This document shows positions 32,295-60,481 of a DNA stretch of 64,000 nucleotides, piece after piece; position 1 is the stretch's first letter, and every line of letters begins with the position of its first letter. The translations under genes and the position numbers were made by a program. The notes under the pieces are model-generated. The model was not told where the DNA came from. It was given only the letters and a program-made list of their open reading frames with translations, and did no database searches. Source of the stretch: Microbacterium sp. W4I4 (GTDB lineage: Bacteria > Actinomycetota > Actinomycetes > Actinomycetales > Microbacteriaceae); contig NZ_JAUSXT010000001.1 in NCBI RefSeq assembly GCF_030816235.1, forward strand, positions 3,348,001-3,412,000, given 5' to 3'.

Positions 32295-32365
32295 CGCGAG
32301 ACTTCACTTCCCGCATGAGACGGATGCTCCTGCGTGCCGTCTCATGCTGGGACAGAAGTCTCGCG
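32295..32365. repeat. 71-bp palindromic element, copy D
   Basis: The outer block CGCGAGA (32295-32301), 11 bases, inner block GCATGAGAC (32313-32321), a 17-base centre, GTCTCATGC (32339-32347), 11 bases, and TCTCGCG (32359-32365) make a long hairpin. Flanking CCC and GGG extend the stem to 32292-32368. Its block order and spacing are identical to copies A, B and C. It lies 23 bases after the nucleotidyltransferase gene and upstream of padR. It could also act as a terminator. Confidence 0.85.
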
Positions 32366-32420
32366 GGGTCGAAGGGCTCGCGGGGTCGAAGGTGGTGCGG
32401 GCGGTGGTGTGGCGGTGTCT

Positions 32421-32451
32421 TGTCACGCATGCTAGCTTGTGAGGCATGACA
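32421..32451. promoter_or_regulatory. Possible PadR operator over the padR start
   Basis: TGTCACGC (32421-32428) and GCATGACA (32444-32451) form an inverted repeat with one mismatch around GATGCTAGC-like palindromic sequence, overlapping the padR start codon. TAGCTT (32433-32438) seven bases before the ATG could be the -10 element. Autoregulation is inferred. Confidence 0.35.
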
Positions 32452-32772
32452 GCGGACGTGGGTGCGCAGATGCGCAAAGGGGTGGTCGAGTACTGCGTGC
32501 TCGGCCTGCTCGCCCGCGAACCGATGTATGGATGGCAGCTCGCCGACGCGCTCACCGCGCCCGGGCTGATCGCCAGCATCGGCACGCTGTATCCGCTGCT
32601 CGGGCGCCTGCGCGACAACGGCTGGGTGTCGACCTTCGACCAGCCCTCCGACGCCGGTCCGGTGCGCAGGTACTACCGGCTGACGGATGCCGGTATCGCC
32701 CAGCTCGTGCTGTTCCGGCGGCAGTGGATGCCCTTCGCCCAGACCGTCTCGTCCCTGGTGGGAGAGGAATGA
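32446..32772 (+). CDS. PadR-family transcriptional regulator
   Basis: This 108-residue winged-helix regulator shows the typical PadR blocks: VLGLLAREPMYGWQLADAL at about 19-37, IGTLYPLLGRLRDNGWV and RRYYRLTDAG. The length is normal for the short PadR type. The stop overlaps the next gene's region, and the pair padR plus HAAS-domain membrane protein is a common two-gene unit. The unit lies inside the cassette bracketed by palindromes D and C. Confidence 0.93.
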   Translation: MTADVGAQMRKGVVEYCVLGLLAREPMYGWQLADALTAPGLIASIGTLYPLLGRLRDNGWVSTFDQPSDAGPVRRYYRLTDAGIAQLVLFRRQWMPFAQTVSSLVGEE

Positions 32773-32774
32773 CC

Positions 32775-33407
32775 ATGATGACCACCACCTCCGACTACCT
32801 CGCCCGGTTGGACGTCGCGCTGCGCGACGTGCCGCACGGGGTCGCCGCCGAGATCCGCGCCGGCATCGCCGAGGAGCTCTCGAGTCTCGGGCCGGATGCC
32901 GCCGAGCAGCGCATCGCGCAGCTCGGCGACCCGGCCGTGATCGCGCGAGAGGCGATGGATGCCGGCGGGTACGTGCCGCCCGCGGCGTTCGCACCTGCGG
33001 TCGTGCCGGCCCCGGTGCCGCTGACCCGCTCGCGCGGCTTCGCGATCGCGGCGGCGATCGCGCTGAGCTTCGGCGGGTTCCTCGTACCGTTCGTCGGCGG
33101 GCTCGTCGGCGCGGTGATGGTCGTGATGAGCGGCATGTGGCGCACCTGGGAGAAGGTCGTCGCGATCTGCGCGCCGCTCGTGCTGTTCGGGGTCGTCCTG
33201 CTCTTCTCGCTCCCCGCCTACACGACGACTGCCGTCGAGGTGCATGAAGCATCCGGAACGGGCACCGCTCCCGAGGCAGTGAACCCGCTCCTGCCGACCG
33301 TTTACGATTTCGGGCACGTGTCGATCCTCGTGCTCGTGGTGGTCGCGATCCCGGCATCCGGCCTCTGGCTGCTGTGGCGGATGCGGGGTCGCACCGCGGC
33401 TCTCTGA
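32775..33407 (+). CDS. HAAS/DUF1700-type membrane protein
   Basis: This protein of about 210 residues starts with a HAAS-like helical domain (DYLARLDVALRDVPHGVAAE to about residue 60, including LGDPAVIAREAM). It is followed by three or four membrane helices. HAAS-domain proteins are usually encoded next to PadR regulators, as here. ATG 32775 is six bases after GGAGAGGA. ATG 32769 (an ATGA overlap with padR) and ATG 32778 are alternatives. The function is unknown, possibly envelope stress or partner sequestration. Confidence 0.85.
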   Translation: MMTTTSDYLARLDVALRDVPHGVAAEIRAGIAEELSSLGPDAAEQRIAQLGDPAVIAREAMDAGGYVPPAAFAPAVVPAPVPLTRSRGFAIAAAIALSFGGFLVPFVGGLVGAVMVVMSGMWRTWEKVVAICAPLVLFGVVLLFSLPAYTTTAVEVHEASGTGTAPEAVNPLLPTVYDFGHVSILVLVVVAIPASGLWLLWRMRGRTAAL

Positions 33408-33459
33408 CGAGCCCGCTCTGCCGACGTGCGCCGCGCCGCGCCGGCGCCGGCGAACCGTG

Positions 33460-33530
33460 TGTGAGAAACCACGATTCGCGCGAGAAATCAGGGGTGGACG
33501 TGAGTTTCACGCGGAATGTGGTTTCTCGCG
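33460..33530. repeat. 71-bp palindromic element, copy C
   Basis: The right arm is canonical: GTTTCACGC (33504-33512), 11 bases, TCTCGCG (33524-33530). The left arm is partly decayed: TGTGAGA (33460-33466), 11 bases, GCGCGAGAA (33478-33486). The 17-base centre is kept. The linker AACCACGATTC resembles AACCACATCCT of copy B. It lies 1165 bases start-to-start from copy D, on the other side of the padR-HAAS genes. Confidence 0.8.
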
Positions 33531-33594
33531 GCCGGGTGCAGCGGCGGCGGAGCGACACGGAGCGCACGGTCCCAGCTCGCCGTCCACCCGGGCG

Positions 33595-33600
33595 TACGGT
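33595..33600 (+). promoter_or_regulatory. -10 element of a leaderless small gene
   Basis: TACGGT is followed by six bases and the ATG at 33607. Confidence 0.4.
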
Positions 33601-33606
33601 CGGAGC

Positions 33607-33765
33607 ATGACGACGCGAGTGGGAGGTCGGAGCCTGGCGGTGAGCTGGATCATCGGCGTCCTGTGCGCCGCTGTCGTCGGTGCGCTGCTGTGGCTCTCGC
33701 TGCCGGCGGGCCCGGGCCTGCTGGTGGTCGTCGGCCACCTTCTCGACGGCACCGTCCCGGGCTGA
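33607..33765 (+). CDS. Small membrane protein, 52 residues
   Basis: This short ORF encodes a basic N-terminus (MTTRVGGRS), one strong membrane helix (LAVSWIIGVLCAAVVGALLW) and a second hydrophobic stretch near the end (GLLVVVGHLL). It has no recognised family. TACGGT lies exactly six bases before the ATG, which matches the leaderless promoter pattern of other genes here and supports its being real. Codon third positions are mostly G or C. Confidence 0.5.
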   Translation: MTTRVGGRSLAVSWIIGVLCAAVVGALLWLSLPAGPGLLVVVGHLLDGTVPG

Positions 33766-33883
33766 GCGGAGCGACACGCCCGGCCGCATGCATACCAGCC
33801 CGACGACACGTCGGCAAGCCTCCCTCCCGCGGGATCACGCGGGCGTTACCCTCACTGTGCACCTATCCACGAGAGGCGAAGCC

Positions 33884-35035
33884 ATGAGCGACCCCGAGGT
33901 TCCCCAGAACGACCGGCCGAATGACATCGATGACGTCGTAGGCAGCGCCAACGAGGGACTCGACGCCGCCGCTGCGGCCCGCGCCGATGTGCCGGGCGAC
34001 GCCGGCGATGCGGATGCCGTCGACCCCGACCTCGCTGCCTTCGAGGCGGCGGAACGAGACCACCCGGGCGTGTTCGACAGCACCGAGGGCAGCCCTGAGC
34101 AGGGGGCCTACGCCGGCGACGGCTCGTACGACGACGCTTCTGCAGCGGGAGCAGCCGACGTCCCCGCGCCGGAGACGGCCGCGGCCGATGACGATGCCCC
34201 GATCGCTTCCGAGCCGGCTCCCTCCGAGCCGGCTCCCTCCGAGGCTGCGTCCTCCAGCGCCTCCGACGGCGACTACGACCTGTCGTACATCCGCGCCGCG
34301 GGCGACGACACGGCCGTGCATGACGCTGACGACGCCGACGCGACGCGCGTCCACGAGACCACCCCGTCGGTGGCCGATGAGGCGTACGGGCTGAGCGCGT
34401 CGTCCGCCGCGGCCGCTGCCGCCGAGACGCAGGTCGTCCCCGCCGAGCCGACGGCACCGCCGGCGGCCCCGCAGCCGATCTTCGTGCAGGCTCCCGAGCC
34501 GCCTCGTGAGCTCGGCAACCGCGGTGCGGCAGGCGGGATCGGGCTTCTCGCCGCCCTCGCCTTCGCCATCCTCTACCTGGGTGCGACTCTCGGTTTGGGC
34601 GCGCTCGCCGGTGATGTGACCGGTGAGAACATCGCGACCGCCGCCCTCGCTCCGCTCACCACCTGGGCGTTCTGGGTTCCCGTCGTGGTCTTCTACCTCG
34701 CGTTCTGGCTGCTCGGTGCCTTCATCAACCGGGCCCGCTGGGGCAAGTGGGTCATCTTCGGACTGCTGGTGGCTGTGGCCACCTACGGCGGGCACCTTCT
34801 GGGACAGCTGTTCCAGGCCCCGTTCTGGCGCATCACCACCAGCGAGACGGTCGACCTCGTCAACGAGCAGATGCTCGCGCCTCTCGCGATCGCGGCGTTC
34901 ATCTTCGCCCGCGAGCTCACCATCTGGTTCGGCGCCTGGGTCTCGCGTGCGGGTGCACGCAAGAAGGTTCTGAACGCCGAGGCGCAGGCCGAGTACGAGC
35001 GCACCCTCGAGGCCGGTCCTTCCGCCCTGCGCTGA
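33884..35035 (+). CDS. Acidic-tailed membrane protein of unknown function
   Basis: This 383-residue protein has two parts. Residues 1 to about 205 are acidic and low in complexity, rich in Ala, Asp, Glu and Pro, with the short repeat SEPAPSEPAPSE. Residues about 220-370 hold four membrane helices (starting near GIGLLAALAFAILYLGATLG, LTTWAFWVPVVVFYLAFWLL, WVIFGLLVAVATYGGHLLG and LAPLAIAAFIFARELTIWFG). Between helices 3 and 4 there is a segment ending in ETVDLVNEQ. The ATG at 33884 follows GAGAGGCGAAG. No family is recognised. The disordered acidic half probably lies in the cytoplasm. Confidence 0.8.
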   Translation: MSDPEVPQNDRPNDIDDVVGSANEGLDAAAAARADVPGDAGDADAVDPDLAAFEAAERDHPGVFDSTEGSPEQGAYAGDGSYDDASAAGAADVPAPETAAADDDAPIASEPAPSEPAPSEAASSSASDGDYDLSYIRAAGDDTAVHDADDADATRVHETTPSVADEAYGLSASSAAAAAAETQVVPAEPTAPPAAPQPIFVQAPEPPRELGNRGAAGGIGLLAALAFAILYLGATLGLGALAGDVTGENIATAALAPLTTWAFWVPVVVFYLAFWLLGAFINRARWGKWVIFGLLVAVATYGGHLLGQLFQAPFWRITTSETVDLVNEQMLAPLAIAAFIFARELTIWFGAWVSRAGARKKVLNAEAQAEYERTLEAGPSALR

Positions 35036-35061
35036 GCGGCGACAGGGCGCCCGGCCGAGCA

Positions 35062-35067
35062 TAGGCT
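35062..35067 (+). promoter_or_regulatory. -10 element of a leaderless membrane protein gene
   Basis: TAGGCT is followed by six bases and the ATG at 35074. Confidence 0.5.
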
Positions 35068-35073
35068 GGCGTC

Positions 35074-35568
35074 ATGAGCACTGACGGAGACCCCCGCGGC
35101 ACTGAGCCGGCGGGGGTCTCTGCGTTCCTGGCGCTGGTCGTCGGGCTCGCCGGGTTCGCGGCGCTGTCGATCCTCGGGCTGGGGATGCTGAGCTTCTTCC
35201 GCGACATCGACATCCTCTCGATCCGCGGACTGGACTGGTGGCCGGCGATCGTCGCGATGATCTTCGCGATCGCCGCTTTCTGCTGGATGCTGTGGCCGAC
35301 CCTCGCCCGCGACCGTCCGTCGTTCCTCGCGGTGCCGGCAGTGGCGCTGGTCACCGCCGTCGCCCATCTGATCGCCCTGTGGCTCGCCGCGCTGCTGAGT
35401 GGGGTGGGGTTCGCGTCGGCTCTGGGCGCGGTCTCGCAGCTTGTCACCCGCGGATCCAGCCTGGTGGTGCTGCTCGCCGCGGCCGTGGGAGCGTGGGTGG
35501 CCATCGCCCTGCGCCGCACGCGCGCGGGCGCCCCGCATTGGCCGTGGGAGGGCGACGACGCGGAGTGA
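35074..35568 (+). CDS. Hypothetical membrane protein, four helices
   Basis: This 164-residue protein has four predicted membrane helices, near residues 15-40, 50-72, 82-108 and 122-145. The C-terminal tail is basic, then acidic (RRTRAGAPHWPWEGDDAE). No enzymatic motif is visible. It resembles short conserved actinobacterial membrane proteins of unknown role. The promoter pattern indicates its own leaderless transcript. Confidence 0.75.
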   Translation: MSTDGDPRGTEPAGVSAFLALVVGLAGFAALSILGLGMLSFFRDIDILSIRGLDWWPAIVAMIFAIAAFCWMLWPTLARDRPSFLAVPAVALVTAVAHLIALWLAALLSGVGFASALGAVSQLVTRGSSLVVLLAAAVGAWVAIALRRTRAGAPHWPWEGDDAE

Positions 35569-35605
35569 CACGCGCGCAAGCCGCGCCGATCCGCGCCCGC
35601 GCCCT

Positions 35606-35611
35606 TACCCT
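35606..35611 (+). promoter_or_regulatory. -10 element of a leaderless gene
   Basis: TACCCT is followed by six bases and the GTG at 35618. Confidence 0.5.
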
Positions 35612-35617
35612 GTAACC

Positions 35618-36265
35618 GTGGAGAGGTCTCTGGAATCCCAGGTGGGCCAGGCTGTCGAGGCCTGGCTGCGCTGGGTGCCGCGCTGGGCGCCGGCGACGCA
35701 CAAAGGGCGCGTCGCCCCGTGCCGTCGTTGCCTGGGGTCGCCGATCCTCTCGGCGGCGGGCATCGGCTCCAACGTTCCCCACGGCGTGCAGCACGGGCTG
35801 TCCACGCGCATCAAGACGATCATCGACCGTGCCGTCGCGGAGTACACCGCGCGCAACCTGCCCATGCTGCAGGCCGAACTCGATCATCAGGCCGACCGCA
35901 ACCGCTCCCGCGCGTATCGTCCGGCCGAGGGACTCGACCCTGAATACGAGGGGATGCCGCTGGATCCCGACCCCGTGCCGGGTGCGCCGTTCCTGTTCAC
36001 GGTCGCGGGTCTCGCGGACGAGGCCGCGGCCGAACTCGCACCACTGCCCCCGTTGAGCGACGAGGCGAAGGCCGCCCTCCGGCAGGAGGTCGCACTGGCC
36101 GACGACTACGCGAACATGGTCGGCCGGGAGATCTGCGGCATCCTGCTGCGCCACCGTCTGCAGGTGCAGGCCGCCATCTCGCAGCACGTCGAACCGCAGA
36201 TCGAGGCGATGCTCGCCGAGCTGGGCGATGAGCTGGACTCTCCGTTCGACCCCGACTTCCCGTAA
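35618..36265 (+). CDS. Conserved hypothetical soluble protein
   Basis: This 215-residue protein starts VERSLESQVGQAVEAWLRWV. A CRRC pair lies at about 36-39, followed by a helical, acidic C-terminal half (EVALADDYANMVGREICGIL). It has no signal peptide or membrane segment. It is not recognised as an enzyme. The GTG start lies six bases after TACCCT, with no ribosome site. The two cysteines may bind a metal or form a disulphide, which is a guess. Confidence 0.7.
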   Translation: MERSLESQVGQAVEAWLRWVPRWAPATHKGRVAPCRRCLGSPILSAAGIGSNVPHGVQHGLSTRIKTIIDRAVAEYTARNLPMLQAELDHQADRNRSRAYRPAEGLDPEYEGMPLDPDPVPGAPFLFTVAGLADEAAAELAPLPPLSDEAKAALRQEVALADDYANMVGREICGILLRHRLQVQAAISQHVEPQIEAMLAELGDELDSPFDPDFP

Positions 36266-36315
36266 CCCTCGCTGGGAATCGCCTGCATCCGCTTGCCGAC
36301 GTCGGGGGCCATGGC

Positions 36316-36352
36316 TATCGTTTTTCGATAGATAGTCATCGTATTTCGATAG
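36316..36352. promoter_or_regulatory. Twin operator for the DUF2975-Xre pair
   Basis: TATCGTTTTTCGATAG (36316-36331) and CATCGTATTTCGATAG (36337-36352) are two copies of one site, 21 bases apart, which is two helical turns. Each is an inverted repeat, ATCG-N5-CGAT. The second copy abuts the ribosome site AGGAG (36351-36355). The Xre protein encoded downstream is the probable ligand. Confidence 0.7.
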
Positions 36353-36359
36353 GAGCATC

Positions 36360-36836
36360 ATGCAGCCCCTCGCCACGTTCGTGCTGAAGGCGATGATCGT
36401 CGTCATGCTGGCACTGCTGGTCATCGCCCAGGTGTTCATGATCCCCGCGGTGGCCGCGACCACGGCCTGGCGCAATCCGGAACTGGCGTACCTGGAGGTG
36501 CCGGGCGTCATCGGCGCGGTGCTGTTCCTGGTGCTCGTCGAGATCGTGCTGGTGTGCGTGTTCGCGCTGCTCTCGCTGGTGCGCGCCGACCGGATCTTCA
36601 GCTCGCACGCGTTCCGCTACGTCGATATCATCATCGGCACCATGCTGGCAGCCGGTGTCGTGATCGTCGCGTCGTACATCGTGCTCTTCATCGCCCAGGC
36701 GGCCAACCCGGGCATCCTGATCCTGGCCCTGCTCGGCACCACGGTCAGTGTCTCTCTGGCTCTGCTCGTCGGAGTGATGCGCGGGCTGCTGCGCAAGGCG
36801 CTGCAGCTCGAGCAGGACCTCTCCGAGGTGGTCTGA
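36360..36836 (+). CDS. DUF2975 membrane protein
   Basis: This 158-residue protein has four predicted membrane helices (about 8-32, 48-72, 88-112 and 116-142). The central block ALLSLVRADRIFSSHAFRYVD is characteristic of DUF2975. These proteins are usually encoded with a small Xre regulator, as here. The function is unknown. The ATG follows AGGAGCATC. The stop and the next start share one base (TGATG). Confidence 0.88.
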   Translation: MQPLATFVLKAMIVVMLALLVIAQVFMIPAVAATTAWRNPELAYLEVPGVIGAVLFLVLVEIVLVCVFALLSLVRADRIFSSHAFRYVDIIIGTMLAAGVVIVASYIVLFIAQAANPGILILALLGTTVSVSLALLVGVMRGLLRKALQLEQDLSEVV

Positions 36837-37066
36837 TGCCCATCGTGATCGACATCGACGTGATGCTCGCGCGTCGCAAGATGAGCGTGCAGGAGTTCGC
36901 GGATGCCATCGGCATCACGCCGGCCAACGTCGCCGTGCTCAAGAACGGACGAGCCAAGGCGGTGCGCTTCACCACGCTCGACGCCATCTGCCGCGTGCTG
37001 GACTGCCAGCCCGGCGACATTCTGCGCCGCGTCCCCGCAGGGACGCAGACCAAGGGGGAGTCATGA
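36836..37066 (+). CDS. Small Xre-family helix-turn-helix regulator
   Basis: This 76-residue protein is almost only a DNA-binding domain. The block MSVQEFADAIGITPANVAVL followed by KNGRAKAVRF forms the helix-turn-helix (about 16-45). The end RVLDCQPGDILRRVP is typical of YozG-like regulators that accompany DUF2975. It probably represses its own operon through the twin ATCG-N5-CGAT sites. Its stop overlaps the next gene's ATG by four bases. Confidence 0.9.
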   Translation: MPIVIDIDVMLARRKMSVQEFADAIGITPANVAVLKNGRAKAVRFTTLDAICRVLDCQPGDILRRVPAGTQTKGES

Positions 37067-40000
37067 CGGGTCGATGGATGCCGGAGAGCATCGCCCGGCT
37101 GAGCGATGCGCACACCTGTCCGGTGTGCGAGCTGACGCCGTTGAGAGACGGATGCTGCCCGCGCTGCGGGGCGGACCTGCGCGGTCCGCAGGGACTCGAG
37201 CTGTGGAACGCGTCCCTGGCCGCGGTCGCCGCGCTGAACACGCGTGCGGCCCTGGTGGCCCGCGTGCCTCGGACGGCATTCACCCCGCACCGGGCGACGG
37301 CGGCGGCGCCGCCGCGGCCCGCACCGGCGCCCGCGGCTTCCGGCACCGCACCCGCGCCGGTGAGGGACGGGGCCAGCCTGCAGTCCGTGCTCGCGACGGC
37401 GGGCGCCGCGCTGTTCGCCGTCGCGGCGATCGTGTTCACCTTCTTCAACCCCGAGCTCGCCGATCGGGCCGTGCGCAGCACCATCATCGGCCTGGTCACG
37501 CTGGCTTTCCTCGCCGGCGCGTGGCTGCTGGCCCGGCGACGGCTGCAGTCCTCTGCCGAGGCGGTGGGCGGGCTGGGCCTCGTCTTCGTCGGCCTCGACG
37601 TGCAGGCGGTCGCCGGATCGTTCTCCGACGGCACGGCCGCGTGGGTGTCCGCGGCGATCGCCACCGCTGTCGCGGGGTGTCTGCTGCTCGCGGCGGCGCT
37701 GCGATTCCGCATCCGGATCTGGCTCTGGACCTCGCTGCTCGCCCTCGCCGCCGTCCCGGCGATGCTCGGTTTCGCCATGCAGGACGCCCTGCCGACGGCG
37801 CTGCTGATCGCCGCATCCGCGTTCGCCGCGACGGGCCTGATGGCCCTGCTCCCGAGGTTCGCTCCCGGTTTCCCCGTGCGCGCGGTCGTTCCGCGGCCGG
37901 ACGGGTCAGCGGATGCCGGAGCGGATCCCGCTCCGCGTCGCGCGCTGCTCGCCGAAACGGTGGCGCTGACCGCACTGCAGGCGATGGCGACGGTGCTCGC
38001 CATCGCGCGCATCATCCTCGCCGAGCCGATCTCCGTCGCCGTCGTCCTCGGCGTCCTGGCGGTCGCCGCAGTGCTCGCCTCGGTGCGGACCGTCCCGAGG
38101 GTCTGGGCCTTCGCTGCCGGTGTCCTCGCTGTGGGCGCCGGTGCCGTCGGCGCTTCGAGCGTGCTCGGCGGGGTCGCGGTCCGATCCGAATGGAGCACCG
38201 CCCTCGAACCCGCCGGCGCCGTGCTCGCGCTTCTCCTCTGCGCGATCGTCCCGCTGTCCTCGCGCACCCCGCGCATCGCCGTCGCGTTCGGTGCCGGACT
38301 CGCCGCCGGCGTGACGAGTGCCCCAGCGGTTCTCCCGGCGGTGTACATCGGGAGCACGCTGCTGGCCTTCACCGGCAGAGGTCTCGATGAAACGGTCTCG
38401 ACGCCGGTCGTGGGGGACGCCACCTGGCCGATCATCGTCGGGCTCGCTGTCATCTCCCTCGGCTTCGCGGTGTTCGCCCGCTTCGCGCGCGGCCGCCACG
38501 ACATCCGTCCGCTGCGGGGAGCCGCCCTCGTGGTCGCGGCGCTGTACGCGACGGTCGCGGTGCTGGCGACGGCTGCCGGTCGCGTGCTGCCGCTGGCGGT
38601 CAGCATCGCCGTCCTGCTCGTGATCGCCGCGGGGACCGCGGCAGTGCTGATCCGACGAATCGGAACCGATGCGGCATCCGCCCGTGTCGTGCTCGTCGTC
38701 GGCGTCCATGTCGCGCTGCTCGTCTCTGTGCTGCTGGCCTGGCAGGACCGCACGGTGGTCCCACTCGCGGGTATCGGAACCATCGCCGTTCTCGCGGTCG
38801 CGGCGGGCACGATCGCACCCGCGTGGCGATTCCTGCACCTGGGACTCGGATACGGGTACGCCCTGGCCCTGGTGTCCACGGCCCTGTCGCTGGCCGGTGT
38901 CGGCGGCGTCGCACTGCTGTGCCTGACGGCATCCGCGGGCCTGCTCGGCGCGATCGCCGCGACGTTCCTGCCCGCCGTGGCCGCGCGCAGCTGGCAGACG
39001 ATCCTCGTGGTGGCGTCCGTGCCGTTCGCGATCGGGATCGCGCAGGTGGTGTTCGAGCGCAGCGGCTGGACGGCGCTGTCGACCGGACTGATGTTCGTGC
39101 TCGCCCTGTCGTTGCTGCTGACCAGGCGCGCCGGCCTCACCGTCGTGATCCGCACACTCGCCGCGGCCGTGCTCGTGCCCTCGCTCGCAGTGGTGATCCT
39201 CTGCCTCGGCGCGCAGCTGCTCGTGCAGAGCGGCTCGCCTGTAGTGCTGCCGCTCATCGCCCTGCTGGTGGCGCTCGTGCTGCCCTCCGGCGGCATGATC
39301 CGCGAAGGTCTCGTCGCGCGCGGCCTGCTCGCCCCTACCGCGGATGCCGCGCGCATAGCGATCGAGGCGTCCGCCCTGCTCACCGCCGTGATCGCCGTGG
39401 CGCTGTCCCTCACGCGCGAGGCCGCCGGGTTCGGGACCGCGTGCCTGGTGCTGATCATCGTCGGCGTCGGAGCGCTCCTCACGTCGCTGGTGGCCGGACG
39501 CCGCTACGGCTGGTGGGTGGCTGCGGCCTCGTTCACAGGCGCGCTCTGGTCGCTGTGGGCGCTGAACGGTGTGGCACTGCCCGAGGCGTACCTGCTTCCG
39601 CCGGCGCTCGGCGCGGTGCTGGTGGCGCTGACTCTCGCGCTGCGCGGCACGCGTTCGGTCGCGCTGTTCGCGGCGGGCCTCGCCGGTGCTGTCGCGCCCG
39701 TGCTGGCGCTGCTCATCGCCGCGGATCCCGTGCACACCGTCCCCTGGCGTGCCTACGGCCTGCTCGCCGCCGGGTGGCTGCTGCTGGCGGCCGGGTGGTT
39801 CATCGGGCGCGCGACGGGAGCGCGCCTGCGACGACTGCGCCCGCTGCGCACCGCCACCGTGCTTATCGCCGCGATCGCCGCGCTCGCCGGTACGGCGCAG
39901 GCGGTGCGCTGGGGGAGCGGCACCGATCCCTCGCCGGTCATCGGCGGCGACGCCGGTGTCTTCCTGCTCGCCCTCGGGATGAGCGCGCTCGCGGCCGTCG

Positions 40001-40884: not shown

Positions 40885-40906
40885 CCGGCGTGGCTGCTTG
40901 CGGCAT

Positions 40907-40936: not shown

Positions 40937-40943
40937 TGATCGG

Positions 40944-41469: not shown

Positions 41470-41474
41470 GTTAG

Positions 41475-41945: not shown

Positions 41946-41951
41946 TGAGCT

Positions 41952-44170: not shown

Positions 44171-44180
44171 GCCCTTCCGC

Positions 44181-45940: not shown

Positions 45941-46205
45941 TAGACTGTGAGCGCCGCCTGGGGATCTTGCGGCACGGATGCTGTGGGGGCACAGCGTCCG
46001 GAAGGACTGGGGATTCATCATGGGGAACACCGTGCTGAGCGCGTGGGATGACCACGGATGCATCGTCATGTCCGCGCGAGCTTCGATTCGCGTCCTTGAA
46101 CGAGGCAGTCGGCATCCCTTCTCGTCGGCTCCTCCCGCCCGGTGCGTCCCCTCCCACCGGGCTTCCCATGGCGCTGGACGGAGCATGGGGATGCTCCGTC
46201 CAGCG
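45941..46205 (+). ncRNA. Candidate structured small RNA ending in a strong hairpin
   Basis: A TAGACT box, about 185 bases of sequence with no good ORF, a stem-loop with the loop CGTCCCCTCC and a final perfect 15-bp stem (46172-46186 with 46191-46205, GGGG loop) look like an independent transcript. C-rich loops before a terminator recall actinobacterial 6C RNA, but I cannot confirm the match. The alternative is a small protein starting MGNTVLSAWDDHGCIVMSAR at 46021. Confidence 0.3.
46172..46205 (+). terminator. Terminator-like hairpin upstream of the S10 operon
   Basis: CGCTGGACGGAGCAT and ATGCTCCGTCCAGCG form a perfect 15-bp stem with a GGGG loop, followed by TCTTGA. It ends a transcript that starts after the antitoxin-like gene. 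Confidence 0.7.
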
Positions 46206-46250
46206 TCTTGAGCAGCCCGATATCGGAGCGCGACACGCCCGGGTTTGCGG

Positions 46251-51889: not shown

Positions 51890-51916
51890 GCCTCCGGCTT
51901 ACTTCAAGGAGTAATA

Positions 51917-52285: not shown

Positions 52286-52287
52286 TC

Positions 52288-52647: not shown

Positions 52648-53237
52648 TGGCAACCGCAACTGCTGCAGAGACTGGCAAGATCCAGCCTCGCCTGAAGCAG
52701 AAGTACAACACCGAGATCAAGAAGGCTCTGCAGGAGCAGTTCGGCTACGCGAACGTCATGCAGATCCCCGGTCTGGTCAAGGTGGTCGTCAACACCGGTG
52801 TCGGCGAGGCGGCTCGTGACAGCAAGGTGATCGAGGGTGCGGTCGCAGACCTCACCAAGATCACCGGTCAGAAGCCCATCGTCACCAAGGCTCGCAAGTC
52901 GATCGCGCAGTTCAAGCTGCGCGAGGGTCAGCCGATCGGCGCGCACGTCACCCTCCGCGGTGACCGCGCGTGGGAGTTCGTCGACCGCCTGGTGAACCTC
53001 GCACTGCCCCGCATCCGCGACTTCCGCGGTCTGTCGGGTGAGCAGTTCGACGGCAACGGCAACTACACCTTCGGTCTCCAGGAGCAGAGCGTGTTCCACG
53101 AGATCGATCAGGACAAGATCGACCGCGTCCGCGGATTCGACATCACCGTGGTCACCACGGCCAAGACGGATGACGAGGGTCGCGCTCTTCTGCGTGCGCT
53201 CGGCTTTCCGTTCAAGGCTGCTGACGCCCCCGCATGA
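52647..53237 (+). CDS. rplE: 50S ribosomal protein L5
   Basis: This 196-residue protein contains [16 protein letters not shown] and [21 protein letters not shown]. It is followed by a hairpin and a 125-base gap. The small S14 gene that often lies here in other bacteria is absent. Confidence 0.98.
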
Positions 53238-53243
53238 TCTTTT

Positions 53244-53277
53244 CGGCTGGGATCGCCGTCACAGGCGGTCCCAGCCG
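53244..53277 (+). terminator. Hairpin between rplE and rpsH
   Basis: CGGCTGGGATCGCC and GGCGGTCCCAGCCG pair with one mismatch (53244-53277). A -10-like CATAAT follows at 53284-53289, so rpsH onwards may have a promoter of its own. Confidence 0.7.
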
Positions 53278-53362
53278 TAAGGCATAATTGAAGATTGTGT
53301 GTTCACGCAGGTCGGCGTCCGTGTAACGGGCGTCGAAACCTCATGATCGAAAGTAGATATCC

Positions 53363-53761
53363 ATGACAATGACAGACCCGGTCGCAGATATGCTGACCCG
53401 TCTGCGTAACGCGAACTCGGCGCACCACGACACAGTGACCATGCCGTCGAGCAAGCTCAAGACGAACATCGCAGCAATCCTCCAGCAGGAGGGTTACATC
53501 GCCGGCTACGAGGTCGTCGACGCCCGCGTCGGCAGCAGCCTCACCCTGTCGCTCAAGTACGGCCCCAGCCGTGAGCGCTCCATCGCCGGCATCAAGCGCG
53601 TGTCGAAGCCCGGTCTCCGCGTCTACGCGAAGTCGACCGAGCTGCCCAAGGTCCTCGGTGGCCTCGGCGTCGCCATCCTGTCCACCTCCTCCGGTCTGCT
53701 CACCGACCGTCAGGCTGAGAAGAAGGGCGTGGGCGGAGAAGTCATCGCCTACGTGTGGTGA
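53363..53761 (+). CDS. rpsH: 30S ribosomal protein S8
   Basis: This 132-residue protein starts [18 protein letters not shown] and ends [11 protein letters not shown], which is standard. Upstream lies a hairpin rather than an S14 gene. It is the first gene after the internal break of the spc operon. Confidence 0.98.
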
Positions 53762-53767
53762 TCTGAC

Positions 53768-54304
53768 ATGTCGCGTATTGGAAGACTTCCCATCGAGGTG
53801 CCCGCGGGCGTGACCGTTACGGTCGACGGCCGCGACGTCACGGTGAAGGGCCCCAAGGGAGAGCTCGCACTGACGATCGCCTCCCCTATCGAGGTCGAGG
53901 TTCAGGAGGGCCAGGTTCTGGTCTCCCGCCCCGACGACGAGCGCGAGTCGCGGTCGCTTCACGGCCTGACCCGCACGCTCATCAACAACGACATCATCGG
54001 CGTGACCCAGGGTTACACCAAGGGCCTCGAGGTCGTCGGCACCGGTTACCGCGTGCAGCAGAAGGGCAGCTCGATCGAGTTCGCTCTCGGCTTCTCGCAC
54101 CCGGTTCTCGTTGACCCGCCCGCAGGGATCACCCTGACGGTCGAGGGCACCAACAAGGTCACCGTCAGTGGGATCAGCAAGCAGGCTGTCGGCGAGGCAG
54201 CTGCGAACATCCGCAAGATCCGCAAGCCCGAGCCCTACAAGGGCAAGGGTGTGCGCTACGCCGGCGAGGTCGTGCGTCGCAAGGCCGGAAAGGCTGGTAA
54301 GTAA
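53768..54304 (+). CDS. rplF: 50S ribosomal protein L6
   Basis: This 178-residue protein starts [20 protein letters not shown] and ends in the motif [20 protein letters not shown]. It begins six bases after rpsH. Confidence 0.98.
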
Positions 54305-54306
54305 CC

Positions 54307-54666
54307 ATGGCTGTCAAGTCCAAGTCCGCCGCCCGCGCTCGTCGCCACACTCGTCTTCGCAAGAAGATCGTCGGCACCGAGTCCCGGCCGCGCCTGGTCG
54401 TCAACCGCTCTGCACGCCACGTGTTCGTGCAGCTCGTCGACGACAGCACCGGCCACACCGTGGCATCCGCTTCCACGCTCGAGACCGATCTGCGCACCTT
54501 CGACGGTGACAAGACCGCCAAGGCCCGCAAGGTCGGCGAGCTCGTCGCGTCGCGTGCCAAGGCCGCCGGTTTTTCCGAGGCCGTGTTCGACCGCGGTGGC
54601 AACCGCTACGCCGGTCGTGTCGCAGCCATCGCCGACGGCGCCCGTGAAGGGGGTCTGGCACTGTGA
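54307..54666 (+). CDS. rplR: 50S ribosomal protein L18
   Basis: This 119-residue 5S rRNA-binding protein has [20 protein letters not shown] and the C-terminal [23 protein letters not shown]. Its stop overlaps the rpsE GTG by four bases. Confidence 0.98.
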
Positions 54667-55355
54667 GTGACAACAAGGAGAACGAAGTGACCGAAACCGC
54701 TCCTGCTGCCGAGGCTGCGGCTCAGGCCGAGCCGCAGCGCGAGCAGCGCGACGGCCGTCGTGGAGGACGCGACCGCGGTCAGAGCCGCGACCGCAACTCG
54801 CGCGACCGTGGCGACAACCAGTTCCTGGAGCGCGTCGTCACCATCAACCGCGTCTCGAAGGTCGTGAAGGGTGGTCGTCGCTTCAGCTTCACCGCCCTCG
54901 TGGTCGTCGGTGACGGCAACGGTCTGGTCGGTGTCGGCTACGGCAAGGCACGCGAGGTCCCCCTGGCGATCTCGAAGGGTGTCGAAGAGGCCAAGCGCAA
55001 CTTCTTCCGGGTTCCCCGCGTCGGCTCGACCATCCCGCACCCCGTGCAGGGTGAGGCCGCCGCTGGTGTGGTGCTGCTGCGTCCGGCCGCTGCCGGTACC
55101 GGTGTCATCGCCGGTGGTCCGGTCCGCGCCGTGCTCGAGTGCGCCGGCATCCACGACGTCCTGTCGAAGTCCCTCGGCTCGTCGAACACGATCAACATCG
55201 TGCACGCGACGGTCAAGGCGCTGCAGAGCCTCGAGGAGCCGCGCGCCGTCGCCGCTCGTCGTGGCCTCGACTACGACGCCGTCGTGCCGGACATCATCAT
55301 CCGCAACGAGGCGAAGGCAGCTGCTGCCGCCGCCGCGCAGAAGGCAGGTGCCTGA
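54663..55355 (+). CDS. rpsE: 30S ribosomal protein S5 with basic N-terminal extension
   Basis: This 230-residue protein is clearly longer than the E. coli form. The S5 core begins near residue 55 ([20 protein letters not shown]). The extension has an acidic/Ala part, then an Arg/Gly/Asp-rich run ([16 protein letters not shown]). The GTG start overlaps the rplR stop. Confidence 0.97.
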
Positions 55356-55540
55356 TGGCCGAGCGCCTCAAGGTCACACAGATCAAGTCCAAGGTGAGTG
55401 AGAAGCAGAACCAGCGCGACACGCTGCGTTCGCTCGGCCTCAAGCGGATCGGCGACTCCGTCGTCCGTCCCGATGACGCGCAGACGCGCGGCTACGTCCG
55501 CACCGTCGCTCACCTCGTCAAGGTTGAGGAGATCGACTAA
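55355..55540 (+). CDS. rpmD: 50S ribosomal protein L30
   Basis: This 61-residue protein starts [20 protein letters not shown] and contains [14 protein letters not shown]. The frame is open upstream inside rpsE, but the ATG at 55355 gives the standard length. It overlaps both neighbours by one base (TGATG and TAATG). Confidence 0.97.
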
Positions 55541-56172
55541 TGGCTGAGAAGAACGAAGCCGTCGAGGCCGAGAAGGCCCCGAAGAAGGCAGCTGCTCCCA
55601 AGGCAGCCGCCGCCAAGAAGCCGGCCGCATCCAAGGCTGCTCCGGCGAAGGCCGCTGCATCCAAGGCCGCTCCGGCCAAGGCTGCTGCCAAGAAGGCTCC
55701 GGCGAAGAAGGAAGCGGATGCTGCTGCATCCCGTCCCGCCGTCCTGAAGGTGCACCACCTGCGTCCGGTCCCCGGCGCCAACACCGCGAAGACCCGTGTC
55801 GGTCGCGGTGAGGGCTCCAAGGGCAAGACCGCCGGTCGTGGCACCAAGGGCACCAAGGCCCGCAACACCGTGCGGGTCGGCTTCGAGGGTGGGCAGATGC
55901 CGCTGCACATGCGCACCCCGAAGCTGCGCGGGTTCAAGAACCCGTTCCGCGTCGAGTACCAGGTCGTGAACCTGGACAAGCTCGCCGAGCTGTACCCCAA
56001 GGGCGGCGACGTCACCGTCGGCGACCTGGTGGCCAAGGGCGCCGTGCGCAAGAACGAGAAGGTCAAGGTCCTCGGCGACGGCGACATCTCGGTCAAGCTC
56101 TCGGTCTCGGTCGACAAGGTGTCCGGCAGTGCAGAGCAGAAGATCGTCGCCGCCGGCGGTTCGGTCAACTGA
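55540..56172 (+). CDS. rplO: 50S ribosomal protein L15 with Lys/Ala-rich N-terminal repeat
   Basis: The L15 core starts near residue 65 ([23 protein letters not shown] has its first 20 residues from V68) and contains [10 protein letters not shown] and [19 protein letters not shown]. The first 65 residues are a Lys/Ala/Pro repeat with several PAKAAA and SKAAPAK units, like histone H1 or actinobacterial HU tails. The total is 210 residues against about 145-150 for a plain L15. Confidence 0.95.
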
Positions 56173-56192
56173 CACGCAGGTGATCAACGCAG

Positions 56193-56221
56193 GGAGGGGT
56201 CGGAGATTCTCCGGCCCCTCC
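56193..56221 (+). terminator. Hairpin between rplO and secY
   Basis: GGAGGGGTCGGAGA and TCTCCGGCCCCTCC pair with one mismatch around a very short loop (56193-56221). It separates rplO from secY and may lower read-through. Confidence 0.75.
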
Positions 56222-56285
56222 TGTGCGTTACTCTGGACTTTCGGCCGTCCTTCGACGTTCGGCAATCCCTTCAGGAGGAACGCCC

Positions 56286-57608
56286 TTGTTTAGCGCCATC
56301 GCGCGAATCTTCCGAACGCCTGATCTGCGTTCGAAGATCCTTTTCACCATCGGCATCATCGCCCTGTATCGCATGGGCTCGAATGTGCCGGCTCCGTTCG
56401 TCCACTTCCCGAACGTCGAGCAGTGTCTCGCGGCCACCGCGGGCACAGACGGACTTCTCGGTCTCGTCAACCTCTTCTCCGGCGGCGCGCTGCTGCAGCT
56501 GTCGATCTTCGCGCTGGGCGTCATGCCCTACATCACCGCGACGATCATCGTGCAGCTGCTCCGCGTCGTCATCCCGCACTTCGAGACCCTTCATCAGGAG
56601 GGCCAGGCGGGCCAGAGCAAGCTGACGCAGTACACCCGCTACCTGACGATCGCGCTCGCGCTGCTGCAGTCGAGCACCGTGGTCACCGTCGCGCGCAGCG
56701 GTCAGCTGTTCGGCCAGACCGACATCGCGGCCTGCCAGAACCTGCTCACCAACGACGTGTGGTGGGCGCAGCTGCTCATCATCATCGCGATGACGGCCGG
56801 CACCGGTCTGATCATGTGGATGGCAGAGCTGGTCACCGAGAAGGGCATCGGCAACGGAATGTCGCTGCTGATCTTCACGTCGATCGCCGCCACGTTCCCG
56901 AGCGCGCTGTGGGGCATCGCCGAGGCCAAGGGCTTCGAGACGTTCCTGCTCGTGCTGGTCGTGGGCCTCGTCGTGATGACGCTGATCGTCTTCGTCGAGC
57001 AGTCCCAGCGCCGTGTGCCCGTGCAGTACGCGAAGCGCATGGTCGGTCGCCGCACCTATGGCGGCACCAACACGTACATCCCGATCAAGGTCAACATGGC
57101 GGGCGTGATCCCGATCATCTTCGCCTCGTCGCTGCTGTACCTGCCGATGCTCCTCGCGCAGTTCAACACGCCTCAGGACGGCAGCGAGCCGCCCGCGTGG
57201 GTCGCGTGGATCTCGACCTACCTCGTGTCGGGCGACCAGCCGCTGTACATGCTGGTCTACTTCCTGCTGAACATCGCATTCACGTTCTTCTACGTGGCGA
57301 TCACGTTCAACCCCGTCGAGATCTCCGACAACATGAAGAAGTACGGCGGGTTCATCCCCGGCATCCGTGCCGGTCGTCCCACCGCGGAGTACCTCGACTA
57401 CGTGATCACCCGCATCACGTTCCCCGGCTCGCTGTATCTGGGCATCGTGGCGCTGATCCCGCTGATCGCGCTCGCGACCGTGCAGGCGAACCAGAACTTC
57501 CCGTTCGGTGGCGCGTCGATCCTCATCATCGTGGGTGTCGGACTCGAGACCGTGAAGCAGATCGACGCGCAGCTGCAGCAGCGCCATTACGAAGGGCTCC
57601 TCCGATGA
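56286..57608 (+). CDS. secY: Preprotein translocase subunit SecY
   Basis: This 440-residue channel protein has ten predicted membrane helices. It includes GGALLQLSIFALGVMPYITA, EKGIGNGMSLLIF and PGIRAGRPTAEYL. The frame has no ATG at the right place. TTG at 56286 is seven bases after AGGAGG (56273-56278) and gives the normal N-terminus FSAIARIFRTPDLRSKI. It is followed by adk with a four-base overlap. Confidence 0.97.
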   Translation: MFSAIARIFRTPDLRSKILFTIGIIALYRMGSNVPAPFVHFPNVEQCLAATAGTDGLLGLVNLFSGGALLQLSIFALGVMPYITATIIVQLLRVVIPHFETLHQEGQAGQSKLTQYTRYLTIALALLQSSTVVTVARSGQLFGQTDIAACQNLLTNDVWWAQLLIIIAMTAGTGLIMWMAELVTEKGIGNGMSLLIFTSIAATFPSALWGIAEAKGFETFLLVLVVGLVVMTLIVFVEQSQRRVPVQYAKRMVGRRTYGGTNTYIPIKVNMAGVIPIIFASSLLYLPMLLAQFNTPQDGSEPPAWVAWISTYLVSGDQPLYMLVYFLLNIAFTFFYVAITFNPVEISDNMKKYGGFIPGIRAGRPTAEYLDYVITRITFPGSLYLGIVALIPLIALATVQANQNFPFGGASILIIVGVGLETVKQIDAQLQQRHYEGLLR

Positions 57609-58213
57609 CGGATGATCAGGACCGCACTGCACGTCTGCTGATCGTCGGGCCGCAGGGTTCAGGCAAGGGCACGCAGGGCGTTCGGGTCGCCGAGGCGCTG
57701 GGGATCCCCGTGGTCTCCACGGGCGACATCTTCCGCGCCAACATCAAGGAGGGCACCGACCTCGGACAGCAGGTCACCGCCATCCTCGACTCCGGTGATC
57801 TGGTGCCCGACGAGCTGACGAGCGAGATCGTGCGCGATCGCCTCTCGCAGGAGGATGCCGCCGGCGGCTTCCTGCTCGACGGCTACCCGCGAAACACCGC
57901 GCAGGTCGCGCACCTCGATGCGTTCCTGGCCGAGCACGGAGCGTCCCTGGACGCGGTAATCCTGCTCGACGTCCCGCGTGCCGAGAGCATGGCACGGCTC
58001 GGCCTGCGCTCGGTGGAGCAGGGTCGTTCGGACGACAACGAGGCCGCGATCGCGCACCGTCTGGACATCTACGAGCACGAGACCGCGCCGATCATCTCGG
58101 TGTACGAGCCCCGTGGCATCGTCGACCGCATCGACGGCATCGGCTCGCTCGACGAGATCACCGCACGCATCTCCGCCGCCCTCGGCGCGCGCGGCATCGG
58201 CCAGCTCGTCTGA
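57605..58213 (+). CDS. adk: Adenylate kinase
   Basis: This 202-residue enzyme interconverts ATP, ADP and AMP. The P-loop is GPQGSGKGT at about 15-23, and LLDGYPRNTAQV is the AMP-site block. The lid (LRSVEQGRSDDNEAAIAHRL) is the short, zinc-free type. The ATG at 57605 overlaps the secY stop as ATGA. Confidence 0.97.
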   Translation: MTDDQDRTARLLIVGPQGSGKGTQGVRVAEALGIPVVSTGDIFRANIKEGTDLGQQVTAILDSGDLVPDELTSEIVRDRLSQEDAAGGFLLDGYPRNTAQVAHLDAFLAEHGASLDAVILLDVPRAESMARLGLRSVEQGRSDDNEAAIAHRLDIYEHETAPIISVYEPRGIVDRIDGIGSLDEITARISAALGARGIGQLV

Positions 58214-58221
58214 ACCACGCG

Positions 58222-59070
58222 ATGTTCCGCAAGTCGATCTACAAGACCCCGGCGCAGCTGCGCTCGATGGTGCAGCCCGGCCTGATCACGGCGGCAGCTC
58301 TTGACGCGGTGCGCCCGCTGGTGCGGGCGGGTGTGACGACGGCCGAGCTGGATGCCGCGGCCGACCGTCTGATCATGCAGCGCGGCGCGGAGTCGAACTT
58401 CAAGCTCGTCCGCGGATACCGGCACACCACGTGCATCTCGGTGAACGAGCAGGTCGTGCACGGCATCCCCGGGGCTCTGGTCCTGCAGCCGGGAGACATC
58501 GTCTCCGTCGACTGCGGCGCCCAGTACCAGGGCTGGAACGGCGACAGCGCGGTGACCTTCGTGGTGCCGGATGACGAGCGCCCGGAGCTGGTCGCGCGCC
58601 GCACCGAACTGTCGCGTGTCACGGAGGGGTCCATGTGGGCCGGTATCGCCGCCATGGCGACCGCGACGCACATCGGAGACCTCGGGGCCGCCATCGAGGG
58701 ATACATCGAGGGACAGGGGCCCTCAGCGGTCTCCGGTGAGACTTACGGCATCCTGCGGGAGTACGTCGGACACGGCATCGGCCGCAAGATGCACGAGGCG
58801 CCCAGCGTGTTCAACTACCGCACGCCGGATGCCGGTGCCGAGATCCGTCCCGGGCTGGTGCTCGCCATCGAGCCGATGGTCACCGCCGGAGGAGATGCGA
58901 CCTTCATCGAGGACGACGACTGGACCGTCACCACAGTCGACGGCACCGACGGAAGCCACTGGGAGCACTCCGTCGCCCGCCATGACGGCGGCATCTGGGT
59001 GCTGACCGCCGCCGACGGGGGCGCCGCCGGCCTCGCGCCCTTCGGCATCACCCCCGTTCCGATCGCGTAA
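58222..59070 (+). CDS. map: Methionine aminopeptidase type I
   Basis: This 282-residue metalloenzyme removes N-terminal methionine. Metal ligands are visible in DIVSVDCGAQYQGWNGDSAV (two Asp), GHGIGRKMHEAP (His), LAIEPMV (Glu) and SHWEHSVA (Glu). The substrate histidine is in RGYRHTTCISVNEQVVHGIP. The length is normal. It lies eight bases after adk. The next downstream element is palindrome A, which may end this transcript. Confidence 0.96.
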   Translation: MFRKSIYKTPAQLRSMVQPGLITAAALDAVRPLVRAGVTTAELDAAADRLIMQRGAESNFKLVRGYRHTTCISVNEQVVHGIPGALVLQPGDIVSVDCGAQYQGWNGDSAVTFVVPDDERPELVARRTELSRVTEGSMWAGIAAMATATHIGDLGAAIEGYIEGQGPSAVSGETYGILREYVGHGIGRKMHEAPSVFNYRTPDAGAEIRPGLVLAIEPMVTAGGDATFIEDDDWTVTTVDGTDGSHWEHSVARHDGGIWVLTAADGGAAGLAPFGITPVPIA

Positions 59071-59110
59071 CGCCTCGGCGCTTTCGCGCCGCCGCGCACT
59101 CGCCCCATTC

Positions 59111-59181
59111 CGCGAGAAATCACATTCTGCGTGAGACATCACGTGTGCACGTGTGTTTCACGCAGAATGTGGTTTCTCGTC
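59111..59181. repeat. 71-bp palindromic element, copy A
   Basis: CGCGAGA (59111-59117), 11 bases, GCGTGAGAC (59129-59137), 17 bases, GTTTCACGC (59155-59163), 11 bases, TCTCGTC (59175-59181). Arms pair over most of their length, with linkers AATCACATTCT and AGAATGTGGTT complementary except one base. The centre CACGTG-TG-CACGTG-like sequence can also fold. It lies between the convergent map and nuclease-like genes and supplies the stop codon of the latter. Confidence 0.88.
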
Positions 59182-60168
59182 GGCTGGTGAGCGCTTTTCG
59201 CGCGGCCGATGGGCGAGCGTCGCGAGCATGGCGTGCTCACGCGGACGACATACTGGCACGCCGGCAGCGCGCAATGACTTGGCCAGGGGATCCACCCGCC
59301 ACACGTCGACGAGTTCCCAACGGGCGAACGGATGCCCGTGGCGACGCAGCCGGTCTTCGCGGCGCTTCTCGTCGGCGAGGTTCTGCGCAGCCTTGGCTGT
59401 ATCGCCGAGTGCGTATTTGCCCCAGCCGTCGGATTCGCCGATGACTCCCTTGGATGGGAACAGGAAGTCGACGCGGTCGCCGTATCCGTCGTAGTCGAAC
59501 TCGTGCTGCAGTTCCGGATGCTCGAAGCCGCACCATCCGATCACGGCACGACTGACGCTCTCACCCGGTGATTCCGCGCGCGCATCAGCATGGCCCCACG
59601 CCCAGCGCGACCTTGCGCGCCCGCGACTGCTCTGCTGGGAGTCCGAGAGCTCGCGCAGCGCAGACAGGTCGGTGAACCCTTGCTGGCTGGGGGAGATGGC
59701 GGCATCCGCCACCGCAAGTCCCTGGGCCGGCGGGAGGACACGCACCATGTCGACGGCGGTGTCCAGGGGCGAGGTCGTCTGTATACCCGCTGTCACGCCG
59801 ATGACCCGTGGGTCTCGGCTGGTGTGCACCACGACATCGCCGAAGCGGCGGGATGCCGTCCTGTTCGGGTCATAGACGTGAATATCCTTCGGCTCATTGA
59901 AGTACGGGATGCCGAGCACGACCGCTGCGGACTCCAGGCACAGCACGGCATGCGGATGCGACCGGACGAACGCGTGCACGCGCACGGCGTAGCGCTTCCA
60001 GTTCGGCAGATCCAGGTACGGCTTGCGCTCGGTGTACACACCCGCTCGGATGCGGACGTACTTCGGTGAGGGAAGGCGGATGCCCAGCATCCGCCCTTCC
60101 TCGGTCGTGATCAGCGGCAAGGGCGAGCGCGTGATCGCGCGCAGCGGAAGCAGGAGTGTGTCCGTCAT
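59158..60168 (-). CDS. AbiEi-like N-terminus fused to a DUF559/Vsr-like nuclease domain
   Basis: This 336-residue protein has an N-terminal region (about 1-90) resembling AbiEi-type antitoxin proteins: VRIRAGVYTERKPYLDLPNW, then HAVLCLESAAVVLGIPYF. Its C-terminal region (about 215-310) resembles DUF559/very-short-patch-repair endonucleases: GDRVDFLFPSKGVIGESDGW, KRREDRLRRHGHPFARWELV. Acidic residues D and E of a PD-(D/E)xK site are plausible (VDF, GESD). No toxin or methyltransferase gene is adjacent. The last residues (EKPHSA) and the stop codon are encoded by palindrome A. Codon bias is weaker than in the surrounding ribosomal genes, which fits recent acquisition. The function is unknown. 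Confidence 0.75.
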   Translation of the reverse strand: MTDTLLLPLRAITRSPLPLITTEEGRMLGIRLPSPKYVRIRAGVYTERKPYLDLPNWKRYAVRVHAFVRSHPHAVLCLESAAVVLGIPYFNEPKDIHVYDPNRTASRRFGDVVVHTSRDPRVIGVTAGIQTTSPLDTAVDMVRVLPPAQGLAVADAAISPSQQGFTDLSALRELSDSQQSSRGRARSRWAWGHADARAESPGESVSRAVIGWCGFEHPELQHEFDYDGYGDRVDFLFPSKGVIGESDGWGKYALGDTAKAAQNLADEKRREDRLRRHGHPFARWELVDVWRVDPLAKSLRAAGVPVCRPREHAMLATLAHRPREKRSPADEKPHSA

Positions 60169-60481
60169 GCGTCACGAGCATGCCGGGTGCTCGCATCCCC
60201 GGAACACACCCGACCCGCAGCCCGTGCATAACTCAGGTCCCGCCCCGATTGTGGAGGGCTAACGCCGGCCCGCGAGAAACCACATCCTGCATGAGACACC
60301 ACGTGAGCGCGTGTGTCTCATGCGAAAAGTGGTTTCTCGCGCGGAGGGGGGATGTCGGGGGAGGGAGACGGGCGGGCGGATGCCGAGGGAGGCGCGGATG
60401 CCGTGGGGCGAGCTCACATGCGGGGCATAGCGAATTCGCGACAGAATGGGGTGACCTTTTTCTGCAGAAGATCGGACAGTC
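60169..60481. other. 313-base divergent intergenic region
   Basis: This stretch holds palindrome copy B (60271-60341), then a G-rich purine stretch (about 60342-60400), a 10-bp palindrome GCGAATTCGC (60430-60439) and a possible -10 element CAGAAT (60442-60447) for the thioredoxin-like gene. No protein gene is seen. It lies between divergent genes, so copy B cannot serve as a terminator for either. Confidence 0.6.
60271..60341. repeat. 71-bp palindromic element, copy B
   Basis: CGCGAGA (60271-60277), 11 bases, GCATGAGAC (60289-60297), 17 bases, GTCTCATGC (60315-60323), 11 bases, TCTCGCG (60335-60341). The outer 11 bases of both arms (CGCGAGAAACC/GGTTTCTCGCG) are perfectly complementary. It is 1160 bases from copy A and lies on the other side of the nuclease-like gene. 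Confidence 0.88.

Follow-up and report, generated by a model that had tools for sequence, protein, structure and literature searches.

The stretch analysed here, called the window below, is 64,000 nucleotides of the genome of Microbacterium sp. W4I4 (contig NZ_JAUSXT010000001.1, positions 3,348,001 to 3,412,000). It holds four copies, A to D, of a 71-bp palindrome, and two of these enclose a single gene, P0001, for a predicted nuclease. We propose that the palindromes and the nuclease gene make up a two-part selfish element, working in the manner of repetitive extragenic palindromes (REP) and their REP-associated tyrosine transposases (RAYT) but with an unrelated nuclease, and we put the probability of this at about 0.65. 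The proposal is carried by the palindrome family and its geometry, by the bracketing of the nuclease gene and its relatives, by the co-diversification of palindrome and protein, by the dispersal of cognate copies and by the predicted fold of the protein. From these we infer that the nuclease system binds, cleaves and copies the boxes of which the palindromes are built.

A palindrome family with fixed geometry

All four elements were verified where a previous sequence-only reading had placed them, with blocks and spacers in the arrangement 7-11-9-17-9-11-7. The outer blocks described as common to all (CGCGAGA/TCTCGCG) are so in six of eight cases, the exceptions being the left block of copy B (TGTGAGA) and the right block of copy C (TCTCGTC); for the inner blocks the figure is seven of eight, the left one of copy B (GCGCGAGAA) being different. 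Two further details did not survive. The linker changes of copy D, said to be partly compensated on the other arm, are not compensated at all, and four linker pairs of D mismatch. Copy B, said to lie between divergent genes, sits between plus-strand genes by codon-usage calls, because the plus open reading frame at 33884-35035 scores +104.6 and the minus frame that overlaps it -34.8; it is copy D that lies between divergent genes. Scored with a weight matrix derived from them, the four copies reach 66-92 bits and no other 71-bp stretch of the window exceeds -5, although, the matrix having been built from these same copies, this shows mainly that the window has no fifth copy.

When a covariance model of 18 copies is run over the complete genome (3.84 Mb), it picks out 24 places; one measures 70 bp, and the other 23 are exactly 71 bp long. 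This number is independent evidence that the palindromes did not arise by chance alone. The sequence-only reading had expected the family to run to tens of members, constant in spacing and largely intergenic, and had taken a total of four, or variable spacing, as the sign that there is no defined family; the genome agrees with the expectation. Each arm is one box used twice, CGCGAGAAACCAC and then, 19 bp on, GCATGAGAMACCAC, and the opposite arm is its mirror image. The palindrome is in other words a single box used four times in the order >> <<, which equals the layout given above. Across the genus, 169 of 295 genomes have matches to the model at E 1e-5 or better, each place being counted on both strands, with at least 17 matches per genome in the richest genomes; among the matches listed, every one spans model positions 1-71.

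The two arms vary rather independently of each other. Over the 18 copies 84.9% of cells are paired, against 83.4% in shuffles, and 41 of 500 shuffles reach 84.9%. The covarying arms predicted earlier are found in part: the covariation score lies above that of most shuffles (4 of 500 reach the observed value), but its extent is modest, and several linker pairs barely differ from chance. Comparison of 19 orthologous pairs of copies between two relatives counts 115 changes on one side only and 17 on both; independence would predict about 8.4 of the latter, and eight of the 17 keep pairing. Such variation is easier to reconcile with boxes that are read as duplex DNA than with an RNA fold, and there is some pull toward symmetry.

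By codon-usage gene calls, nine of the 24 copies lie between convergent genes, nine between co-directional genes and three between divergent genes, three of these 21 overlapping a gene end. The remaining three are within real genes and all in frame: one between the Pfam domains of a thiamine pyrophosphate-dependent enzyme, one just ahead of the methyltransferase domain of a second gene, and one within a PfkB kinase. Among the 94 of 295 genomes that gave a match, many relatives of the kinase align straight across the insert, and in one (G071) the aligned stretches on its two sides meet directly. The insert sits in a variable linker, in which precise insertion boundaries are not definable, and in at least two other species this linker holds different palindromes, unlike those of the window (L372 in G036, L387 in G248).

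The nuclease gene and its flanking palindromes

Copies C and D bracket one gene, P0001, which the sequence-only reading had missed (Table 1), and the bracketed unit consists of that gene alone. Its TGA stop (59158-59160) lies in the inner box of copy C. The AbiEi-like domain is backed by matches to the PADLOC AbiEi models and by fold, and the C-terminal domain is predicted to fold like Vsr and the homing endonuclease I-Bth0305I (structure 3r3p). NCBIfam and Pfam give no match for P0001, for which a precomputed annotation field lists PF09407; a profile search of the Protein Data Bank by sequence has a best E of 1.3; single members of a set of 47 of 90 loci (A4) weakly reach AbiEi_4, AbiEi_1 or DUF559. 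A further set (A5) comprises 75 of the 120 proteins listed. The family has invariant nuclease residues, and dN/dS is 0.09-0.31 in nine pairs; the protein is under purifying selection.

P0001 is the only close member of its family in the genome. Relatives are encoded by 272 of the 396 genomes sampled from the order and are spread over 82 of 109 genera, and none were found in plasmids and phages at 1e-8 and 1e-5. The named relatives are largely from Microbacterium and, in the best 120 of 808 hits, mostly annotated as hypothetical protein or AbiEi-type regulator.

It is the flanks of these relatives that tie palindrome and protein together. In 90 loci of the genus, palindromes scoring 14 or more were counted by the 100-bp bin of their centre. 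Two bins stand out, the one just upstream of the gene start region, occupied at 42 of 86 loci, and the stop-codon bin, occupied at 56 of 88; any other bin reaches at most nine. At one fixed threshold, both sides carry a palindrome at 73 of 134 loci, and at 66 of the 73 the two resemble each other; the 66 comprise 48 of the 95 loci of the genus and 18 of the other 39, which come from outside it or are the genome's own paralogues. Control genes from fetched DNA have palindromes on both sides in nine of 272 cases and similar pairs in none; for similar brackets Fisher's test, which ignores kinship, gives p 1e-38. The 134 loci exclude L182-L189, which repeat loci already in the set, and the controls exclude genes with nuclease-like motifs, below 750 bases, repeated or with short flanks. 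A palindrome on at least one side is found at 116 of the 134 loci. A separately fetched named set with overlapping species, of which 70 of 80 loci have enough flank on both sides, behaves likewise: 61 loci have a palindrome on at least one side, 31 on both, and 23 have similar pairs.

The top tier of nuclease loci, 45 in 43 genomes, includes 27 with a matrix-detected 3' palindrome and 25 with palindromes on both sides. Of the 27 3' palindromes, 17 start at -4 or -23 relative to the stop, so that either the outer or the inner box, which are 19 bp apart, provides the TGA. In one genome (G030, L060:741-1622) a shortened copy of the nuclease gene lies between two palindromes in the same map-DsbA interval.

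The box sequence changes with the protein, and the 19-bp geometry persists. Beyond the top tier the flanking palindromes use quite different boxes, such as GAGACCCCGAG, GAGACGGGGTTT, GAGAATTGC, CATAAACGC and CGAGGTAGAC, some of which are present within the top tier too. The two flanks of one gene nevertheless match each other: in 58 of 73 cases a palindrome's best match among 73 is its own partner. Similarity between palindromes follows that between proteins (Mantel rho 0.54, not reached in any of 1000 permutations). Among palindromes of 56-100 bp, the genus has 188 strong arms (of 272 arms in all), and in 165 of these the box recurs after exactly 19 bp; outside the genus the interval is 19-20 bp in 60 of 71 strong arms (98 in all). 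Shuffled arms favour no offset. Much of the re-coding seems to have taken place at one ancestral site, because 36 of the 45 top-tier loci are flanked by a gene of the map-infA region. The box-reading domain is weakly indicated by partial correlation, which is 0.27 for the N-terminal part and 0.12 for the C-terminal part.

Dispersed copies also follow particular nucleases. The genome has a second, remote member of the family (G000:C1:1471383-1472294, L091), 31% identical to P0001 and bracketed by a different palindrome of 85 bp. Dispersal of that palindrome was predicted beforehand, and it occurs at 19 places in the genome at E 1e-6 or better, two of which are the flanks of the gene itself. A third member (G000:C1:3452158-3453063, L090) is bracketed by its own similar pair. 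Copies were gathered by similarity to a model or flank and ranked against 116 nuclease flank sets, a comparison which asks which flank fits best and not whether any fits. In two relatives, G085 and G290, the best fit is to the nuclease of the same genome or of its partner for 15 of 16 copies (from 21 places) and 13 of 14 (from 20 places), respectively. Of the 17 non-flanking copies of the second, 85-bp family, 12 were ranked, and all 12 fit their own nuclease best. In the window, copy B is closest to the flanks of its own nuclease and copy A to those of another species (G274, L105). Copy A and six further copies in the genome form the GAGACTTC subfamily. Six copies of this type are closest to the flanks of the G274 nuclease, as if orphaned, and the subfamily may have lost its own nuclease here. 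Elements occur in all 43 genomes with the top nuclease tier and in 126 of 252 others.

The sequence-only reading had supposed that either a protein or a nucleic-acid fold reads the element. The protein is the part of this that finds support, as C and D bracket a DNA-binding, nuclease-like gene and relatives are bracketed by palindromes of their own.

Table 1. Palindromes, nuclease gene and bordering genes in the window.
Feature	Position	Strand	Description	Basis
Copy A	32295..32365		71-bp palindrome, GAGACTTC subfamily	
Copy B	33460..33530		71-bp palindrome, GAGAAACCAC subfamily	
Copy C	59111..59181		palindrome at 3' end of nuclease gene	
Copy D	60271..60341		palindrome 5' of nuclease gene, 102 bp ahead of its ATG	
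P0001 gene	59158..60168	-	336 aa, AbiEi-like and Vsr-like nuclease domains	profile and fold
AbiEi-antitoxin-like domain	59584..60123	-	residues 16-195, proposed box reader	profile and fold
PD-(D/E)XK / Vsr-like nuclease domain	59251..59574	-	residues 199-306	predicted fold
map-like metallopeptidase M24 gene	58222..59070	+	left border of bracketed unit	Pfam PF00557
DsbA/thioredoxin-like gene	60482..61159	+	right border of bracketed unit	Pfam PF13462, PF01323

Copy A lies 23 bp past a plus-strand gene and 92 bp ahead of a gene of the PadR family. Together A and B flank this regulator and a HAAS-domain gene (32458-33407), at a distance of 1165 bp, near the 1160 bp between C and D, which is possibly a coincidence. 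It is worth adding that the window contains two other symmetrical sequences: an inverted repeat ahead of ribosomal protein genes (46158-46219), its arms 29 nt long and its loop 4 nt, and, from a symmetry scan, a long imperfect palindrome of unrelated sequence (18416-18495).

Proposed mechanism and alternatives

In the proposed element the palindromes would be the dispersed half, and the nuclease gene held between copies C and D the other half. The AbiEi-like domain would recognise the box, and four boxes in the order >> <<, 19 bp apart in each arm, would allow the protein to load symmetrically. The Vsr-like domain might then nick or cut in or beside the palindrome, perhaps when this is extruded or single-stranded, and host repair or replication would leave new copies elsewhere. 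Such copies would land mostly in tolerant sites past stop codons, and sometimes in frame in coding linkers. They would drift once placed, and the nuclease and its two flanking copies would shift their box sequence together. On a wider scale, we give about even odds to the idea that an unrecognised type of selfish DNA is common in Actinomycetales, each AbiEi-Vsr nuclease spreading a palindrome of its own, with the box re-coded along with the protein under a fixed architecture (four boxes, 19-20 bp). The pairs of nuclease and box would then amount to a natural DNA-recognition code, and the whole to a second strategy of the REP/RAYT type, invented independently with a hydrolytic enzyme.

Several results weigh against the selfish element. 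No palindrome was detected on at least one side at 61 of the 134 loci, and none on either side at 18. In the genome studied here only 10 of 22 dispersed copies (the 24 without C and D) rank their own nuclease's flanks first, although 16 have them within the top three. Elements are also carried by the 126 genomes without the top nuclease tier; three genomes (G033, G112, G257) are rich in elements and have only remote relatives of the protein. Presence and absence between strains, expected by the sequence-only reading, is seen at the map-dsbA interval and within the PfkB gene, but 19 of 21 element positions are common to G085 and G290, which are about 91% identical over most compared loci, and element turnover is slow. 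Comparison of these two gave no clean empty site, both differing intervals differing by more than the element, and no target-site duplication was seen by eye in the flanks inspected. The nuclease gene itself looks inherited in place rather than mobile, because so many of the top-tier genes are near the same map-infA genes. Finally, a Foldseek search gave no match at E 1e-3.

The shared positions fit the alternative that survives best, though we still think it unlikely: that the protein is a DNA-binding regulator or a chromosome-organising factor serving the host, and the palindromes its selected operators or structural sites. AbiEi antitoxins repress the operon that encodes them and bind inverted repeats; P0001 has an AbiEi-like domain, and its gene has a palindrome on the upstream side. 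Orthologous copies are moreover slightly more alike than their flanks (88.7% against 83.3%). However, the second palindrome overlies the stop codon, copies lie in frame within unrelated genes, most are at gene ends (the convergent positions outnumbering the divergent as listed above), and a regulator alone would leave the invariant nuclease residues unexplained.

The PADLOC matches would also suit a defence or toxin-antitoxin system, in which AbiEi is fused to a nuclease and the palindromes are self marks, decoys or control sites. We regard this as improbable, since such a system does not call for a co-diversified flanking pair, and the bracketed unit is a single gene; the map and DsbA-like neighbours are not toxins, no search for an AbiEii nucleotidyltransferase toxin having been made elsewhere. 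More improbable again are non-autonomous elements of an ordinary transposase, either a RAYT or that of an insertion sequence whose ends match. Scattered copies of one fixed length are in keeping with such elements, but the Y1 transposase (Y1_Tnp, PF01797) is not in the genome, whereas it is found in five of 14 control genomes (other transposase families were not searched for); the linked protein and the palindromes have diversified together, and in a single genome each of two remote members has a dispersed family of its own. RNA hairpins acting as terminators or transcript stabilisers, for which the copies between convergent genes and the largely complementary arms might speak, are the least credible and an RNA element was rejected, as Rfam has no match in the window at gathering scores, covariation is modest, copies lie also upstream of genes and within them, and the linked protein would be left unexplained.

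Comparison with known systems

No known family tested here fits the system, which is not a claim of first report; none of the DUF559 papers inspected deals, in its title or abstract opening, with palindromic repeats. The attC sites of integrons have paired boxes in an imperfect palindrome, as here, and the sequence-only reading had drawn this parallel. It is not supported, and an integron was rejected: unlike attC, the copies here have one motif used four times in >> << order, they do not form an array but lie scattered, and their associated enzyme is of a different, Vsr-like type (an integrase was not searched for). Rickettsia palindromic elements are palindromes of similar size that lie in frame within coding genes, as do three copies here. 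We know of no nuclease gene linked to them.

The protein resembles two further systems in part. Its N-terminal domain is like the AbiEi antitoxins of type IV toxin-antitoxin systems by profile and fold, but unlike these it carries a nuclease domain, forms a one-gene unit and has dispersed cognate palindromes. The predicted catalytic fold is shared with Vsr-like homing endonucleases such as I-Bth0305I; unlike them, P0001 was not seen within an intron or intein, is bracketed by palindromes, and has a DNA-binding domain that is AbiEi-like rather than of another type.

The closest parallel is with REP/RAYT. According to Nunvar et al. (2010; PMC2817692), the enzyme gene in that system is bracketed by palindromes, and the dispersed cognates co-diversify with the enzyme. 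Set against that account, the present system is similar in that the nuclease gene is bracketed by two cognate repeats, enzyme and repeats co-diversify, and the copies are mostly outside genes. It differs in its enzyme, a predicted Vsr-like hydrolytic nuclease with an AbiEi-like domain instead of a Y1 tyrosine transposase, and in its palindrome, which has four boxes at 19-bp spacing and no GT(A/G)G head (absent from the 18-copy consensus and from the flanks inspected). Membership of REP/RAYT was rejected, because enzyme and palindromes are of other kinds and the Y1 transposase is missing from the genome; by analogy, the system appears to work like REP/RAYT without being a member. If the link between nuclease and palindrome is causal, one explanation would serve for a large group of uncharacterised proteins and for many palindromes that so far lack one, and dozens of natural pairs of nuclease and box would be available from which changes of recognition could be worked out. 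A causal link would also mean that palindromes can spread with no need of a tyrosine transposase.

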